Of a stretch of DNA of 64,000 nucleotides, positions 32,115 through 38,859 are shown piece by piece (the stretch's first letter is position 1; each line of letters opens with the position of its first letter). The stretch is from Chloroflexota bacterium (GTDB lineage Bacteria > Chloroflexota > Dehalococcoidia > Lucifugimonadales > Lucifugimonadaceae): positions 1 to 64,000 of the forward strand of contig JABIFF010000017.1 in NCBI GenBank assembly GCA_018650845.1. Reading direction: 5' to 3'. Made by a program: the position numbers and the translations under genes. The notes under the pieces are model-generated. The model was not told where the DNA came from and made no database searches. It saw nothing but the letters and a program-made list of their open reading frames with translations.

Positions 32115-32591
32115 CTACAGCTTTTCTATTTCGTGCAGGAGTTCGCCTGAGGCTGGGATCGAATCGGTGTAGACGTTCGACCAGCGGATCACGCCTTCGC
32201 CATCGATGATGAACACTGAGCGTTTTGCCTTGCCGGTTTCTTCATTGAAAACGTCGAACGCCTTGATCACTTCGCCGTGCGGCCAAAAATCACTGGCAAC
32301 CGGGAACGGAACATGCCCGTCTTCGTCGGAATCGTCTTCTCGCATGCTTGCGACCCAGGCTTTTTGCACAGGAGTCGGATCGGCACTGATCTCGATGATC
32401 TCTGTGTTCAGAGCAACGAATTTTTCGTAGTTTGCGCGGAACCCGCGCACCTGGTTTAGTCAGCCACCGGTGAAGCTGGCCGGATGAAATCCAACCACTA
32501 CCGTTTTGCCGCGCAGGTCGGAAAGTTTTACCTGACCTGAATGCGCATCCAAAGTGAAATCTGGTGCCTGAGTACCGGGTTGCAGTGCCAT
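32115..32591 (-). CDS. prxU: Selenocysteine-containing peroxiredoxin (in-frame TGA at catalytic position)
   Basis: 158 residues if TGA is read as selenocysteine. From the ATG at 32591 the frame runs MALQPGTQAPDFTLDAHSGQ, then LSDLRGKTVVVGFHPASFTGG, then TGA (32462-32460), then LNQVRGFRANYEKFVAL onward without interruption. P37-x3-T41-x2-U44 is the universal peroxiredoxin motif PxxxTxxC, with TGA exactly at the peroxidatic cysteine. The second part carries the expected EIIEISADP, FPVASDFW and RSVFIIDGEGVIRW. It would reduce hydrogen peroxide or organic peroxides through a selenol. A SECIS-like hairpin starts 10 bases after the TGA. The usual annotation would cut it to the 111-residue GTG-started piece. 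The selA/B/C/D genes are not in the window. It lies 61 bases after an amidohydrolase in the same direction. Confidence 0.85.
32433..32462 (-). promoter_or_regulatory. Bacterial SECIS-like hairpin downstream of the TGA codon
   Basis: After TGA (32462-32460) come 10 bases, then TGCGCGG, loop GTT, CCGCGCA (32449-32433): a perfect 7-bp GC-rich stem with a three-base loop whose first base is G. The loop begins 18 bases after the TGA. Known bacterial SECIS elements have a small apical loop with a G in the first two positions, about 16-37 bases from the TGA. This one fits all three. Confidence 0.8.
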
Positions 32592-32652: not shown

Positions 32653-33516
32653 CTACGACCAGTCCCAAACGCGCATGGCGTTTCCACCAAGATATTTATC
32701 ACGTTCATCAGCTGTAAGCCAATCGAAGCCTTCCCGCACCAGCTTCAGCTCGTCGGCGAGCGAAAGCCAGCCGTGATCTACACGGTGATAGCCGGGATAG
32801 CCAGTGCCCCACATTACGTTGTCCATCCCGAAAGCATCCATCGCCATCTTGATCACATCGTGCATGTCGCTGAACGGGTGATCATCGCTTTCGGAACGAT
32901 TGTGAATATCTGAAATCTTCATCAGCACGTTTTCGTGCTTGGCGAGGGCGAGAACCGGCTTGTAGACGTCCCAATCGGGAGCCATGTTCGGCTCTGGGTA
33001 CATCATGTGATCGATTAACCAGGTTATTCCCGGGTACTTTGCCGCAACGTGATCAAACTGGTGGGCGTGTTCGGGTCGGTTGTGAATCTGAACGATGCCT
33101 TCACGTTGTTCAATTGCTTTGAACATCGCTTGGTTCTCGGGTCGAAGCAAAATATCGACTTCAGCGTAGTACTGCGGATGAAATCTAAAACCCTGCATCT
33201 GGCGTTCGTCCATCCAGTACACGGCCTGCTCAGCGTTCTTATCGTCCATCGGATCAACAAGCCCCATCGAAACGAATCGCTCTGGGTATTTGATCGCTGA
33301 AGCAGCTACGTACTCGTTGTCCCAAGTCGAAAACGATGTTTGCACTAGAACGGTCTTATCGACCCCGTTGGCGTCCATATCGGCAAGCTGCAGTTCGGCA
33401 TTGCCGTGTGCTTTTGGTTTCGAGGTGAAATTTGGTGCGCTCGGACCGATAGGCGCTATCGGTGGCATCTCCCAAATATGAACGTGTGTATCGACGATTT
33501 CTGGACGTTGTGACAT
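32653..33516 (-). CDS. Amidohydrolase-2-family (PDC lactonase-like) metal hydrolase
   Basis: 287 residues. The start MSQRPEIVDTHVHIWEMPPI carries the HxH of the amidohydrolase-2 group (like 2-pyrone-4,6-dicarboxylate lactonase and ACMS decarboxylase). Further elements: GFRFHPQYY, VQIHNRPEHAHQFDHVAAKY (histidine), ITWLIDHMMYPEP (histidine on a strand) and VMWGTGYPGYHRV (the usual aspartate in W-G-T/S-D is replaced by glycine here). The last change could affect catalysis. The reaction is probably lactone or amide hydrolysis or decarboxylation, substrate unknown. ATG at 33516. The peroxiredoxin gene follows after 61 bases. Confidence 0.75.
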   Translation of the reverse strand: MSQRPEIVDTHVHIWEMPPIAPIGPSAPNFTSKPKAHGNAELQLADMDANGVDKTVLVQTSFSTWDNEYVAASAIKYPERFVSMGLVDPMDDKNAEQAVYWMDERQMQGFRFHPQYYAEVDILLRPENQAMFKAIEQREGIVQIHNRPEHAHQFDHVAAKYPGITWLIDHMMYPEPNMAPDWDVYKPVLALAKHENVLMKISDIHNRSESDDHPFSDMHDVIKMAMDAFGMDNVMWGTGYPGYHRVDHGWLSLADELKLVREGFDWLTADERDKYLGGNAMRVWDWS

Positions 33517-34431: not shown

Positions 34432-35895
34432 CTACTCAGCACTCCAGCGCAAAACCGGCTTTCGAGCCGCCGTTGCTTCGTCGAGTCGAGTCACCGGCAA
34501 GTCGTGAGGTGCTTCGAGAATTAACTCTGGCGAAGCATCGATTTCATCGTCGATCTGTCGCATTACTGCGATGAAGTGATCGAGAGTTTCTTTCGATTCC
34601 GATTCCGTAGGCTCAACCATCAATGCTTCGTCGACGATCAACGGGAAGTACATCGTTGGGGCGTGAATGCCGAAATCGAGCAATCGCTTGGCAATATCTA
34701 AGCCAGCAACGCCACGCTTCTTCTGCTTCGTGGCAGAAAGAACCGTCTCGTGCATGCAGTAGCGATCGGCGGCAAGGTTGTACTTGTCGCGCAACTTAGC
34801 CTGAATGTAGTTCGCACTGATAATCGCGTTCTCAGATACCGACTGCAGCCCTTCGAGTCCGAGCGCCTTGATGTAGGCGTAGGCACGAGCAGCGATCGAG
34901 AACGATCCGTGGAAGCCGTTGATTGCTCCAACCGACATCTCGGGAGTGCCCATTGCGTAGCCATCGTCAGTCTTGATGGCGACCGGCTTTGGAAGGAATT
35001 TCGCTAATTCGTCGGTGACCATCACAGGACCAGATCCCGGACCACCACCGCCGTGTGGTGTTGAGAACGTTTTGTGCAAGTTCGAGTGACAAATATCGAC
35101 ACCCAAATCGCCCAACTTCACTAACCCAAGCAAGGCGTTCAAGTTCGCGCCGTCGGCGTAGACCAAACCACCAGAATCGTGAACAATCTTGGTGATTTCG
35201 AGAATATTTGGCTCGAACAACCCGAGCGTGCTCGGAATCGTAAGCATGAACACCGCCGTGTTCTCGTTGGCAAGCTCGCGAAGATTGTCGACATCGACAT
35301 TGCCCTGGTCGTCGGAACGAACAGTCACGACTTCGAGACCCGCCATTGCTGCCGATGCGGGGTTCGTGCCGTGAGCAGAGTCGGGAACAATCGCAACCGT
35401 ACGTTTCGAGTCGTTCTTGGCTTCGTGGTACGCCCGTGCAATCAGCAGGCCAGCGTATTCACCCTGTGCACCTGCAAGAGGAGCCAGAGAAACTCCCGGC
35501 AAACCAGTTATTTCGCCAAGGTCGTCTTGAAGGTCTTTTAACAACCGAATAGCACCCTGAACGGTGTCGTCGGGTTGAAGCGGGTGAATGTCGGCTAGAC
35601 CCGGCAGATTCGACAGTTCGTCGTTGATCTTCGGGTTGTACTTCATCGTGCATGACCCAAGCGGGTAGAAATTCGTGTCGATAGAGAAATTTAGCTGGCT
35701 CAGCACCGAGAAATAACGAATTACTTCAAGCTGTGAGACTTCCGGAAGCTCGACATCGTCACGCAAGAACGATGAGTCAGGCAAATCTTGCGAAGGAACA
35801 TCGGATTCGGGAAGCGTGAATGCTTTTCGACCTGATACAGAACGATCCATCAGCAATCGACGATCGATGTCGCCTACGTTAGTGGAAATAGTCAT
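34432..35895 (-). CDS. gcvPB: Glycine dehydrogenase (decarboxylating) subunit 2
   Basis: 487 residues, the C-terminal half of P-protein as a separate subunit. The PLP lysine lies in ICHSNLHKTFSTPHGGGGPG, the hallmark S-x-L-H-K-T-F-x-x-P-H-G-G-G-G-P. N-F-Y-P-L-G-S-C-T-M-K-Y-N-P-K and DSAHGTNPASAAMAG are also typical. With GcvPA it decarboxylates glycine and passes the aminomethyl group to GcvH lipoate. ATG overlaps the gcvPA stop by four bases (translational coupling). Last gene of gcvT-gcvH-gcvPA-gcvPB. The length is normal for a split PB subunit. Confidence 0.95.
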   Translation of the reverse strand: MTISTNVGDIDRRLLMDRSVSGRKAFTLPESDVPSQDLPDSSFLRDDVELPEVSQLEVIRYFSVLSQLNFSIDTNFYPLGSCTMKYNPKINDELSNLPGLADIHPLQPDDTVQGAIRLLKDLQDDLGEITGLPGVSLAPLAGAQGEYAGLLIARAYHEAKNDSKRTVAIVPDSAHGTNPASAAMAGLEVVTVRSDDQGNVDVDNLRELANENTAVFMLTIPSTLGLFEPNILEITKIVHDSGGLVYADGANLNALLGLVKLGDLGVDICHSNLHKTFSTPHGGGGPGSGPVMVTDELAKFLPKPVAIKTDDGYAMGTPEMSVGAINGFHGSFSIAARAYAYIKALGLEGLQSVSENAIISANYIQAKLRDKYNLAADRYCMHETVLSATKQKKRGVAGLDIAKRLLDFGIHAPTMYFPLIVDEALMVEPTESESKETLDHFIAVMRQIDDEIDASPELILEAPHDLPVTRLDEATAARKPVLRWSAE

Positions 35896-37256
35896 GACGA
35901 AGCTCCGATCTCGCTCAAAGCTTTCACAAATTTATCTATATCAGCCTTTGAACTAGTCTCCGTCACGCAAACAAGCATGCCATTCTCAGATCGATCGGAA
36001 ATATCCAGACCACCTATGATTTTCTTATCGAGCAAGTCAGCATTGATGCTTGAAGCCGAACTTGGGCACGAAACAACGAATTCGTGGAAGAACGTTCCGC
36101 CAGTTGCGAGTGCATCGACAGTGAAGCCGTTGAGCTTGTTGATTTCAGATGCTGCGTAGTGCGCCTTCTGGTAACAGAGATTCGCAAGGTCTTTGATGCC
36201 CTGCTTGCCGAGAGTTGCGGCGTACACAGTGACCATCAGGCCAATTAGCTGCGTGCTAGTGCAGATATTCGAGGTCGCACGTTCTCGTCTGATGTGCTGC
36301 TCACGAGTTTGCAGAGTAAGTGCGTATCCAGTCCGGTCCTTCGTATCAGTCGTTCGACCGATAATTCGACCCGGCATTTGGCGAATGTGTGCTTTCTTAC
36401 AGGCGAACAGCCCAACGTACGGGCCGCCGAACGCCATTGGCACACCGAGAGGCTGACCTTCGGCAGTGACGATGTCTACATCGAACTCGCCGGGGGCTTT
36501 GAACATGCCCAGCGCAGTTGGATTCACGTGAACGACTGATAGAGCGCCGTTATCGTGAGCAAGTTTCGTGAGTCGTTCAACATCTTCGATCTCGCCGAAG
36601 AAATTCGGGCTTTGAATGCCAATACAGGCAAGATCGTCAGGAATATCTGTGGCGTCGGGCTCGATCTCGACAATATCTATGCCCTGATGCTTCGAGTAAG
36701 CCACGAGAGTCTCGGGCAATCGGCCATCGGCAGTCGAAAGAATGCCTACTTTGGTTCGTTTGGTCACACGTGCTGCCATAAGGCATGCTTCAGCAAACGC
36801 TGTAGGACCGTCGTACATGCCCGCATTGGCAACTTCCATGCCTGTGAGCTGACAAATAACCGTCTGAAACTCGAATCCAACCTGCAAAGTGCCTTGAGCA
36901 GCTTCTGGCTGGTAGGGCGTGTAGGCGGTTACGAACTCACCACGCTGCAAAATCGAACGAACGGTCGACGGAATGTAGTGGCTGTAGGCTCCAGCTCCCA
37001 AAAACGAGATATACCCACTTGAAGCCGAAGCGTTTTCAGCCGCGATAGACCCAAATACTGTCGAAAGTTCCTGCTCAGAAAGTCCGGGAGCCAATTTCAG
37101 CGCCGGATGCCTGTGCTCAACAGGAATATCGCCAAGAAGGCCATCGAGAGAGTCGACGCCGATCACGCCGAGCATTTCTTCTCGTTCGGAATCGGTTGAT
37201 GGAATGTACGGGTGGTTTACTGAGGTGTTGGTGCCAGACGAGGTTGGTGAAGCCAT
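35892..37256 (-). CDS. gcvPA: Glycine dehydrogenase (decarboxylating) subunit 1
   Basis: 454 residues, the N-terminal half of P-protein. Family marks: YIPSTDSEREEMLGVIGVDS at the start, F-L-G-A-G-A-Y-S-H-Y-I-P, FVTAYTPYQPEAAQGTLQVG with FQT, GMEVANAGMYDGPTAFAEAC, QPLGVPMAFGGPYVGLFACK and MPGRIIGRTTD. It forms the alpha2-beta2 P-protein with GcvPB. ATG at 37256, 12 bases after gcvH. Split P-protein is common in Gram-positives, Thermus, Chloroflexota and archaea, whereas Proteobacteria usually have a fused one. Confidence 0.95.
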   Translation of the reverse strand: MASPTSSGTNTSVNHPYIPSTDSEREEMLGVIGVDSLDGLLGDIPVEHRHPALKLAPGLSEQELSTVFGSIAAENASASSGYISFLGAGAYSHYIPSTVRSILQRGEFVTAYTPYQPEAAQGTLQVGFEFQTVICQLTGMEVANAGMYDGPTAFAEACLMAARVTKRTKVGILSTADGRLPETLVAYSKHQGIDIVEIEPDATDIPDDLACIGIQSPNFFGEIEDVERLTKLAHDNGALSVVHVNPTALGMFKAPGEFDVDIVTAEGQPLGVPMAFGGPYVGLFACKKAHIRQMPGRIIGRTTDTKDRTGYALTLQTREQHIRRERATSNICTSTQLIGLMVTVYAATLGKQGIKDLANLCYQKAHYAASEINKLNGFTVDALATGGTFFHEFVVSCPSSASSINADLLDKKIIGGLDISDRSENGMLVCVTETSSKADIDKFVKALSEIGASS

Positions 37257-37268
37257 TGAAGTTTTTTC

Positions 37269-37643
37269 TTACTCCAACGTTGCCTGGTAGGTGGCGGCGT
37301 CCATCAAGTCATCGAGCTGAGCAGTATCCGAAAGTTCAACTTTGATCAGCCAGCCGGAACCGTATGGCTCTTCGTTCACTACTTCGGGGGCGTCGGTAGC
37401 AGCCGAGTTGACCTCGACGATCTTGCCGCCGACCGGTGAGAATAGATCGCTCACAGCCTTCACTGATTCGATTTCGCCGAATTTGGCGAACTGTTCAACA
37501 TCGGAACCTTCTGCAGGAAGATCAACGAACACGACATCGCCAAGCGATTCCTGAGCAAACACGGTCACGCCTACTTCAGCAATATTGCCGTTCATTCGCA
37601 CCCATTCGTGTTCTTTCGAGTATTTTAATTCTTCCGGATACAT
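37269..37643 (-). CDS. gcvH: Glycine cleavage system H protein
   Basis: 124 residues, lipoyl-bearing carrier. ELKYSKEHEWVRMNGNIAEV at the start, ITDxAQ-like GVTVFAQESLGDVVFVDLP, and the lipoyl lysine in GEIESVKAVSDLFSPVGGKI at about position 62. The end PYGSGWLIKVELSDTAQLDD is standard. It carries the aminomethyl group from P-protein to GcvT and the electrons to dihydrolipoyl dehydrogenase. No lipoate-attachment gene is seen nearby. ATG at 37643, 82 bases downstream of gcvT. Confidence 0.95.
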   Translation of the reverse strand: MYPEELKYSKEHEWVRMNGNIAEVGVTVFAQESLGDVVFVDLPAEGSDVEQFAKFGEIESVKAVSDLFSPVGGKIVEVNSAATDAPEVVNEEPYGSGWLIKVELSDTAQLDDLMDAATYQATLE

Positions 37644-37725
37644 CGTCTATCACGTTCCTAATTTTGCTCTAGTGGCTAATTTGCTAGCCAGTTTCATGAT
37701 CGGCAAACCAGTTGGCTAGAAAAGC

Positions 37726-38859
37726 CTAACTGCGTTTGTAAAAGGGCATATCTACTATCTCAGCTTCAACTGGTCTCCCACGCACATCGATCACCAACTT
37801 AGTACCAGTTGCAGCGTACTTTCGCTCAACGTAGCCCATGCCAATACCAGCGTCAACAGTCGGCGAATGGGTACCTGAAGTAACTGTTCCGATTCGGTTC
37901 GAATCGCTCACTGAATCATCACCACTGGAATGGATGTTCAAGCCCGCTCTTGGGATGCCGCGACCGACCATTTTGAAGCCAACTAATAATCGTTCCGATT
38001 CTTTGTCGGCAAGCTGCTTTAGCGCATATCCAGCAATACAGTTTGGCGCTTCGTAGTACGCAAACCGACCGAATCCGGCTTCGAACGGATTAGTGTCAGA
38101 AGTCAGATCGTTTCCGTGAAGCGGAAGTCCTGCTTCGAGACGAAGCACATCGCGTGCGCCAAGACCACACTCAATTGCGCCAGCATCACGCAACGCTTTC
38201 CACAGTTTTACGCCCTGATCAGATGGCACGACGATTTCGAAGCCATCTTCACCGGTGTATCCGGTTCGAGCGAGAGTTGCGGGAATTCCAGCAACCTCGG
38301 CACTCCCAATGCGGAATCGTCGGATTTTCGAGGCTTCATTGTTCGTAAGCGAATCGACGATTTCTAGAGCGTTCGGACCTTGAATTGCGACCATCGCTGT
38401 GTCGTTCGTGATCACGTTCATAGTGAAATCATCACGAGCTGCGAGGTGCGGTGTTATCCACTCCATATCGACATCGGCGTTTCCAGCGTTTATCACCAGC
38501 AGAAATTTGTCTTCATCGGTGCGGTAGACCATCGCATCATCGATGATCCCGCCCGTTGCGTTGCAGATGAAGTTGTATTTTCCTCTGCCGTTTTTGAGCG
38601 CAGGTACGTTCGCAGACGTAATTGAACTGAGGATCGATTCAGCGCCGGGTCCTTCGAAAACGAGTCGCCCCATATGCGAAACGTCGAAAATTCCAGCCGA
38701 GCTACGAACCGCTTTTACTTCGGCAATTATTCCGTCTGAGTACTGAACTGGCATGTCCCATCCGCCAAACGGCACCATTTTTGCGTTTGATTCGACGTGA
38801 GTGGAGTGAAGGACGGTTTTCTTGAGCTGTTCTGTTGTGGACTGCGCTTCGTCGCTCAA
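37726..38859 (-). CDS. gcvT: Glycine cleavage system T protein (aminomethyltransferase)
   Basis: 377 residues, TTG start at 38859 (GGGAAAA upstream). FGGWDMPVQYSDGIIAEVKA, GIFDVSHMGRLVFEGPGAES, GGIIDDAMVYRTDEDKFLLV, then ARTGYTGEDGFEIVVPSD and LRLEAGLPLHGNDL match GcvT. The aspartate in the VSHMG/RLEAGLPLHGNDL-lined site is the tetrahydrofolate-activating residue. It releases ammonia and makes 5,10-methylene-THF. First gene of the cluster, so the promoter should lie in 38860-38970; I saw no glycine riboswitch there, though I could not fold it. Confidence 0.95.
   Translation of the reverse strand: MSDEAQSTTEQLKKTVLHSTHVESNAKMVPFGGWDMPVQYSDGIIAEVKAVRSSAGIFDVSHMGRLVFEGPGAESILSSITSANVPALKNGRGKYNFICNATGGIIDDAMVYRTDEDKFLLVINAGNADVDMEWITPHLAARDDFTMNVITNDTAMVAIQGPNALEIVDSLTNNEASKIRRFRIGSAEVAGIPATLARTGYTGEDGFEIVVPSDQGVKLWKALRDAGAIECGLGARDVLRLEAGLPLHGNDLTSDTNPFEAGFGRFAYYEAPNCIAGYALKQLADKESERLLVGFKMVGRGIPRAGLNIHSSGDDSVSDSNRIGTVTSGTHSPTVDAGIGMGYVERKYAATGTKLVIDVRGRPVEAEIVDMPFYKRS

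Follow-up and report, generated by a model that had tools for sequence, protein, structure and literature searches.

A predicted selenocysteine peroxiredoxin of SAR202 Chloroflexota, with an in-frame TGA conserved at the peroxidatic position

The locus and its neighbourhood

The window (the whole 64-kb stretch of DNA analysed here) carries on its minus strand a frame running from ATG 32591 to a TAG at 32117-32115 (translation of 32591-32112), in which a single internal stop, the TGA at 32462-32460, forms codon 44 (Table 1). The first-pass annotation had described this frame as unbroken save for that codon, and the translation agrees. The peptide context of the TGA is HPASFTGG-TGA, i.e., PxxxTxx-TGA, and the read-through protein contains no cysteine; several of the 16 other distinct homologues of the genus have a Cys at position 70, and L038 has one at 70 and another at 90. 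An in-frame TGA within a TxxU motif is in itself a common sight: the window has 22 such sites when at least 20 codons are required before and 30 after, the present one included. The weight of the case lies on homology, conservation and the sel genes. Screening of the window by codon score and by UxxC, CxxU, TxxU and similar patterns gave no further convincing TGA-interrupted gene; the codon score separates poorly, with four other sites of the window ranking above the TGA described here.

The amidohydrolase gene upstream scores 47 bits against the NCBIfam fuconolactonase model, far under the cut-off of 400. It directly adjoins the peroxiredoxin gene, in the same orientation, at all 16 other distinct loci of the genus. 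Among 13 loci from other genera or families, two (L059 and L062) show this arrangement, and at L061 the amidohydrolase gene is co-oriented at a distance of about 870 nt. We infer that the amidohydrolase and the peroxiredoxin are co-transcribed. Nearby genes include a KHG/KDPG-type aldolase (PRK07114, 312.7 bits for a cut-off of 275), as well as a GarL/HpaI-like aldolase and a sugar-acid kinase-like gene that are both under their cut-offs, so that the neighbourhood looks like one of sugar-acid catabolism. A downstream ORF of 138 aa had no match in Pfam or NCBIfam and has a counterpart at 5/16 other distinct genus loci. Elsewhere in the window, four minus-strand genes (34432-38859) presumably encode the P2, P1, H and T components of the glycine cleavage system, by their look.

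Table 1. Features of the locus and further in-frame-TGA candidates; G, C and L handles denote genomes, contigs and loci, and U stands for the residue at the TGA.
Feature	Position	Strand	Remarks
Sec-peroxiredoxin gene (predicted)	32115..32591	-	158 codons; TGA at codon 44; ends with TAG; Pfam AhpC-TSA match
In-frame TGA, predicted Sec44, peroxidatic position	32460..32462	-	aligned with the Cys of AhpE FTGIC and with the Cys of homologues
bSECIS-like hairpin	32433..32449	-	7-bp stem; loop GUU from +18 after the TGA
Amidohydrolase (PF04909)	32653..33516	-	61 nt upstream of the Sec-peroxiredoxin gene, same strand
selD candidate	window's genome		CAGUAGK with TGA
SelW-like candidate	C4		CVPU beside a CVPC copy
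UGSC-family candidate	C8		129.1 bits for a cut-off of 125
Longer UGSC relative, UGTC	C6		98.1 bits, under the cut-off of 125
Prx-like candidate, UTFC	L110, G000:C5:96289-96726		after a lipoprotein-like start

Protein family and active site

The read-through protein matches Pfam AhpC-TSA (PF00578) with 112.9 bits for a cut-off of 26, and Pfam Redoxin with 70.1 bits for a cut-off of 26.6. P37, T41, position 44 and R124, which we take to be the catalytic Arg of peroxiredoxins, do not vary among 13 aligned proteins, and the protein thus has both the family profile and the active-site residues (Pro, Thr, Cys/Sec and Arg) of an AhpC/TSA peroxiredoxin. The in-frame UGA stands where homologues have their redox Cys: the Cys of the FTGIC stretch of Mycobacterium tuberculosis AhpE and that of the Cys homologues align opposite the TGA. 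The annotation had further placed the TGA at the Cys of a "universal" PxxxTxxC motif; the place is right, whereas the universality is not, the Pro being replaced in 14 of the 48 Sec rows (9 Val, 3 Ile, 1 Thr and 1 Ala) of the 70 proteins used below for a tree, the 22 others being Cys rows. Val or Ile takes the place of this Pro in L064, L066, L067, L070, L079, L080, L081, L083, L086, L087, L089 and L090. An AlphaFold2 model built from 13 sequences of the genus reached a pLDDT of 49.3, too poor for use.

Among solved structures, to which this comparison applies, the best match is AhpE (Rv2238c) of M. tuberculosis, with 85.6 bits for entry 5c04 and about 81 for other AhpE entries, the next kind of peroxiredoxin following at 65 bits. 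Both proteins are of similar length and share a SDFWPHG stretch, but AhpE has a Cys where the window protein would have Sec. AhpE is described as a one-Cys enzyme reduced by mycothiol or mycoredoxin (PMC4360819, excerpt), and an active-site His is given as specific to Prx6, with Tyr or Phe instead in AhpE types (PMC12697902, excerpt). The window protein has neither Tyr nor Phe at this position, since it carries His36, where chain 4x0x of AhpE has Phe and 5c04 has His. As in Prx6-type enzymes, this His lies just before the active-site Pro, eight residues before the peroxidatic residue, and from the HP motif both His may correspond. The window protein is shorter than Prx6 enzymes, which have an extra C-terminal part. 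A separate Cys peroxiredoxin of 210 aa in the same genome (L109, SHPADFTPVC) appears Prx6-like on reading.

A selenocysteine peroxiredoxin, PrxU of Eubacterium acidaminophilum, was reportedly described by Sohling et al. in 2001. PrxU is a peroxiredoxin whose peroxidatic residue is Sec (PMC13188914, excerpt), as is predicted for the window protein, and the NCBIfam PrxU model (NF040737) is the best NCBIfam match of the latter by E-value. The score of 79 bits remains however far from the cut-off of 270, and the model has 233 positions for a protein of 158 residues; the earlier assignment to Sec peroxiredoxins as a kind is kept, with the refinement that the PrxU model is not reached. The AhpC-TSA family with a TxxU motif (Prx, PF00578) is an experimentally verified selenoprotein family (PMC13188914, excerpt), and the window protein shares both family and motif. 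The same likeness, by family and motif only, holds for the Prx family of the Global Ocean Sampling (GOS) metagenomes, with 253 Sec sequences and 7,348 Cys homologues (PMC2398784, excerpt); the gene described here can be assigned to SAR202 Chloroflexota.

The residue eight positions before Sec is His in 38/48 Sec rows (6 Tyr, 4 Phe), and His in two of the 22 Cys rows (L068 and L109; 16 Phe, 3 Tyr), one Cys row being misread as the wrong Cys was picked in L103. When only one member of the genus is kept, His is found in 22 of 32 Sec rows. Four UxxC rows (L094, L110, L112 and L112b) are left out of the tree and of this count, and belong to the 26 non-TGA rows used for the hairpin below. The Prx6-type His thus seems to go with Sec, mainly along one clade, which may reflect shared ancestry, and the family would combine Sec and a Prx6-like His within an AhpE-like sequence.

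Selenocysteine machinery

The genome of the window is a draft of 2.48 Mb in 24 contigs, with a stated completeness of 87.27%. The sel genes, on which the first-pass annotation had made its reading depend, are all encoded there: a tRNA-Sec (66.4 bits for a cut-off of 47, called tRNA-SeC with anticodon TCA by ARAGORN), selA (516.5 bits, cut-off 268), selB (329.8 bits, or 350.2 when joined, cut-off 242) and selD (368.3 bits, cut-off 125), the last with an in-frame TGA of its own in the motif CAGUAGK. This is the complete set for a bacterial selenoprotein. The tRNA-Sec is matched twice, at the end of C3 (L001) and at the start of C17 (L002), with about 99 bp in common, and both are taken as one gene at a contig break because the closed genome G013 has a single match of that class (66.4 bits, the next at 52.3).

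The tRNA-Sec was searched in 12 chosen genomes, of which 10 had a match above the cut-off; eight were accepted, since ARAGORN calls the best match of G001 and G015 a tRNA-Ser, and ARAGORN confirms a tRNA-Sec in both of those submitted to it among the eight (G013 and G059). Several genomes count against a selenocysteine reading, all of them drafts: G001 has the TGA gene, selA and selD with no tRNA-Sec found, for which we suppose an assembly gap; G015 and G035 have selA and no accepted tRNA-Sec match; and G026 has the TGA gene without selA, but with a selD of the TGA type.

Conservation of the TGA and alternative readings

With duplicate loci across the two genome searches counted once, the TGA occupies the place of codon 44 in 43/60 genomes, its own included, under 16 family labels. 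Within the genus, 17 of 19 genomes, own included, have the TGA gene, and G015 and G016 are without it, a point against the selenoprotein reading. A pattern scan of a genome collection returned 14 loci, 12 of which belong to Chloroflexi/Dehalococcoidia/Lucifugimonas and all have TGA; the two others are from Opitutae/Opitutales, have 34-36% identity and carry Cys. Of 148 sampled genomes belonging to the class, 38 have a match at E<=1e-15, with one TGA in some cases and none in others; these figures count matches irrespective of the codon at this place. The TGA is also kept in the complete chromosome CP046147.1 of JH1073 (L030, 91%). We take genome G013, of the same genus as that of the window, to be this chromosome of Candidatus Lucifugimonas marina JH1073, a strain from the SAR202 cultivation work (PMC10444878, excerpt). 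Of the 43 genomes that carry the TGA gene, 42 have selA, as do 11 of the 17 others, which gives 53 of the 60 in total (Fisher p 0.0014, uncorrected for relatedness).

Three other readings of the TGA may be weighed against these observations. The first takes it as a genuine stop, the locus then encoding a peptide of 43 residues and a separate protein of 111 residues from GTG 32450. Such an ORF is indeed present, and its GTG is found in 16/17 genes of the genus; however, the codon is GTA in L052, the 111-residue protein would be devoid of the peroxidatic residue, and the Sec machinery is at hand, which makes a true stop very improbable. Secondly, the TGA could be a mutation or a miscall of TGC or TGT in a Cys peroxiredoxin, be it a pseudogene or a sequencing or assembly error, as might be feared from a draft of 24 contigs and 87.27% completeness. 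The same codon recurs in 43 genomes, spread over 16 family labels, and stands in a closed chromosome as well, which refutes the sequencing error that the annotation had left open. Moreover, both sides of the TGA are equally conserved, with 20 invariant columns out of 43 before it and 53 out of 114 after it in 13 aligned proteins, so that we regard an error or a decayed gene as extremely improbable. Finally, a changed code in which TGA is decoded as Trp or Cys has a vanishingly small probability, given the tRNA-Sec with anticodon TCA, selA, selB and selD, and given that TGA is the terminal stop of several homologous genes (L028, L031, L033, L034 and L037), which argues for recoding and not for a changed code.

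A hairpin downstream of the TGA

Bacterial SECIS elements are known to place a loop with an early G 16-37 nt after the UGA. The hairpin following codon 44 pairs TGCGCGG (32449-32443) with CCGCGCA (32439-32433) around the loop GTT (32442-32440); its stem begins 10 nt after the TGA, and its loop at +18 with a G as first base, in agreement with this rule (applied directly to the sequence). Stem, loop, gap and loop position, all given in the first-pass annotation, are borne out by the alignment, and a hairpin of 6 or 7 bp formed here in each of three folded stretches. The Rfam search of the window at gathering thresholds returned two tRNAs and no SECIS family.

Against dinucleotide shuffles, the hairpin is unexceptional (z -1.03, -1.35 and -1.16 for the three stretches). 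Since the peptide around the hairpin is conserved, a fairer null consists of synonymous re-encodings that keep the peptide and use the codon usage of each locus; of 500 such re-encodings, 0.8% fold at least as well (z -2.55). This test is passed at p<0.05 by 27 of 48 TGA rows versus two of the 26 in which a Cys codon stands instead, and these counts are not independent because rows of the genus are related. The two passing Cys rows, L094 and L112b, are read as UxxC genes with a TGA three codons earlier, from a stop directly 5' of TYC and from the one TGA scored in the genome search. Counting against the hairpin, 21/48 TGA rows fail, all outside the genus except L032, and the shape of the hairpin varies beyond the genus.

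In the 17 genes of the genus, the invariant residues of codons 45-54, an interval comprising spacer and hairpin, have a codon entropy of 0.42 bits (6 columns, of which two belong to the spacer that precedes the stem), versus 1.12 bits elsewhere (53 columns; permutation p 0.00015). The hairpin is thus constrained at synonymous sites. Base-pair covariation is thin: 99.0% of cells are paired, one of the seven pairs has changed on both sides (G-C to A-U), and 32/500 shuffles do equally well, which also counts against it.

Probable exchange of selenocysteine and cysteine

In the tree of 70 proteins, one group (support 90/89, not starred) unites 44 Sec rows with a single Cys row. This row, L068 of genome G059, lies nested among Sec forms and adjoins one of them (97/75, not starred), which speaks for the selenoprotein reading. 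Outside this main group, some on long branches, are the remaining Sec rows, L092, L093, L095 and L096. At least six changes between Sec and Cys are required on the tree, four of which are forced by starred branches. L068 looks like a single-gene change from Sec to Cys and likely not a loss of the trait, because G059 still has both tRNA-Sec and selA. At L070 (G045:C194), the Sec peroxiredoxin has a Cys peroxiredoxin as its immediate neighbour on the same strand.

Further selenoprotein candidates

Besides the peroxiredoxin gene, at least five in-frame-TGA candidates are predicted in the window's genome (Table 1), which together with that gene makes six. Most of the set recurs in G013/JH1073, which has the peroxiredoxin, selA, tRNA-Sec, a TGA-type selD, a SelW-like CVPU gene and the UGSC type; the latter is represented by two genes with one TGA each, at 124.6 bits (just under the cut-off; this one reads UGSC) and 98.4 bits (well under it). 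A tandem of SelW-like genes, CVPC then CVPU with TGA, is seen in the window's genome on C4 (L120/L125) and in JH1073/G013 (L121/L124). The TGA genes of the UGSC family are those at L127, L131 and L128, of which L131 reads as a long protein with UGTC under the cut-off. Neither the window's genome nor G013 gave a match to CMD/AhpD (PF02627).

Discussion

Starting from the observed gene, the position and conservation of its TGA, the synonymous constraint at the hairpin and the sel machinery, we hold it nearly certain that the gene is a functional selenoprotein, in which UGA would be read as Sec through SelB and the hairpin, giving a peroxiredoxin with one selenol that depends on an outside thiol. 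SelB carrying Sec-tRNA-Sec would meet the ribosome at the UGA of codon 44, recruited by the hairpin 10 nt downstream, and selenocysteine would be inserted in place of termination, yielding a product of 158 residues. Sec44, set by Pro37, Thr41 and Arg124, would then reduce H2O2 or organic peroxides and turn into a selenenic acid. As the protein contains no cysteine, no internal selenenyl-sulfide could form and an outside thiol would be required, probably a low-molecular-weight thiol or a thioredoxin- or glutaredoxin-like protein.

The kind of protein is known. Sec peroxiredoxins are among the commoner selenoproteins of ocean metagenomes (PMC2398784, excerpt), and Prx accounts for 7.1% of GOS selenoprotein genes (PMC9402790, excerpt). 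What the present sequences would add is the clade, the AhpE-like type and the pairing of His with Sec; less expected are AhpE as nearest solved relative, a score below the cut-off of the PrxU model, a Prx6-type His together with Sec, and the lack of any cysteine. No word beginning with "Chloroflex" occurs in PMC13188914 or PMC2398784, and the excerpt of the latter ties ocean Sec peroxiredoxins to no host clade of this kind. Selenoproteins of Chloroflexi are not new, as three were listed in 2006 (PMC1794560, excerpt), and Sec formate dehydrogenases have been described in Anaerolineales, as have, by annotation, dehydrogenases with Sec in Dehalococcoidales (PMC4959059, excerpt). SelA and SelB were reported in most bins of sponge symbionts from various phyla, SAR202 bins being among the bins, in a text whose excerpt names no SAR202 selenoprotein (PMC5649159). 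The literature searched, mostly to the exclusion of subscription papers and preprints, named no SAR202 selenoprotein, which is weak evidence, and no word in the SAR202 cultivation paper starts with "selen" (PMC10444878).

A gene-caller stopping at the TGA would miss the active site of the Sec peroxiredoxin. Beyond annotation, the gene, the four sel components and other selenoprotein families typical of the ocean come together in one SAR202 genome. Prx, SelD, SelW-like, UGSC-type and Prx-like TGA genes are all found in this single genome. SAR202 could conceivably contribute a substantial part of the surface-ocean selenoproteome, as a source not named to date, with its Sec peroxiredoxin as a distinct His-Sec variant (AhpE-like with a Prx6-type His), a proposal that we put forward tentatively and consider rather doubtful, the more so in view of the SelA and SelB already known from the sponge-symbiont bins (PMC5649159). 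If true, a need for selenium could bear on the difficult cultivation of SAR202 and on its light sensitivity, which is called unexplained (PMC10444878, excerpt). As most of the set is present in the cultured JH1073, selenium use in this slow-growing, light-inhibited ocean clade would be testable in culture.
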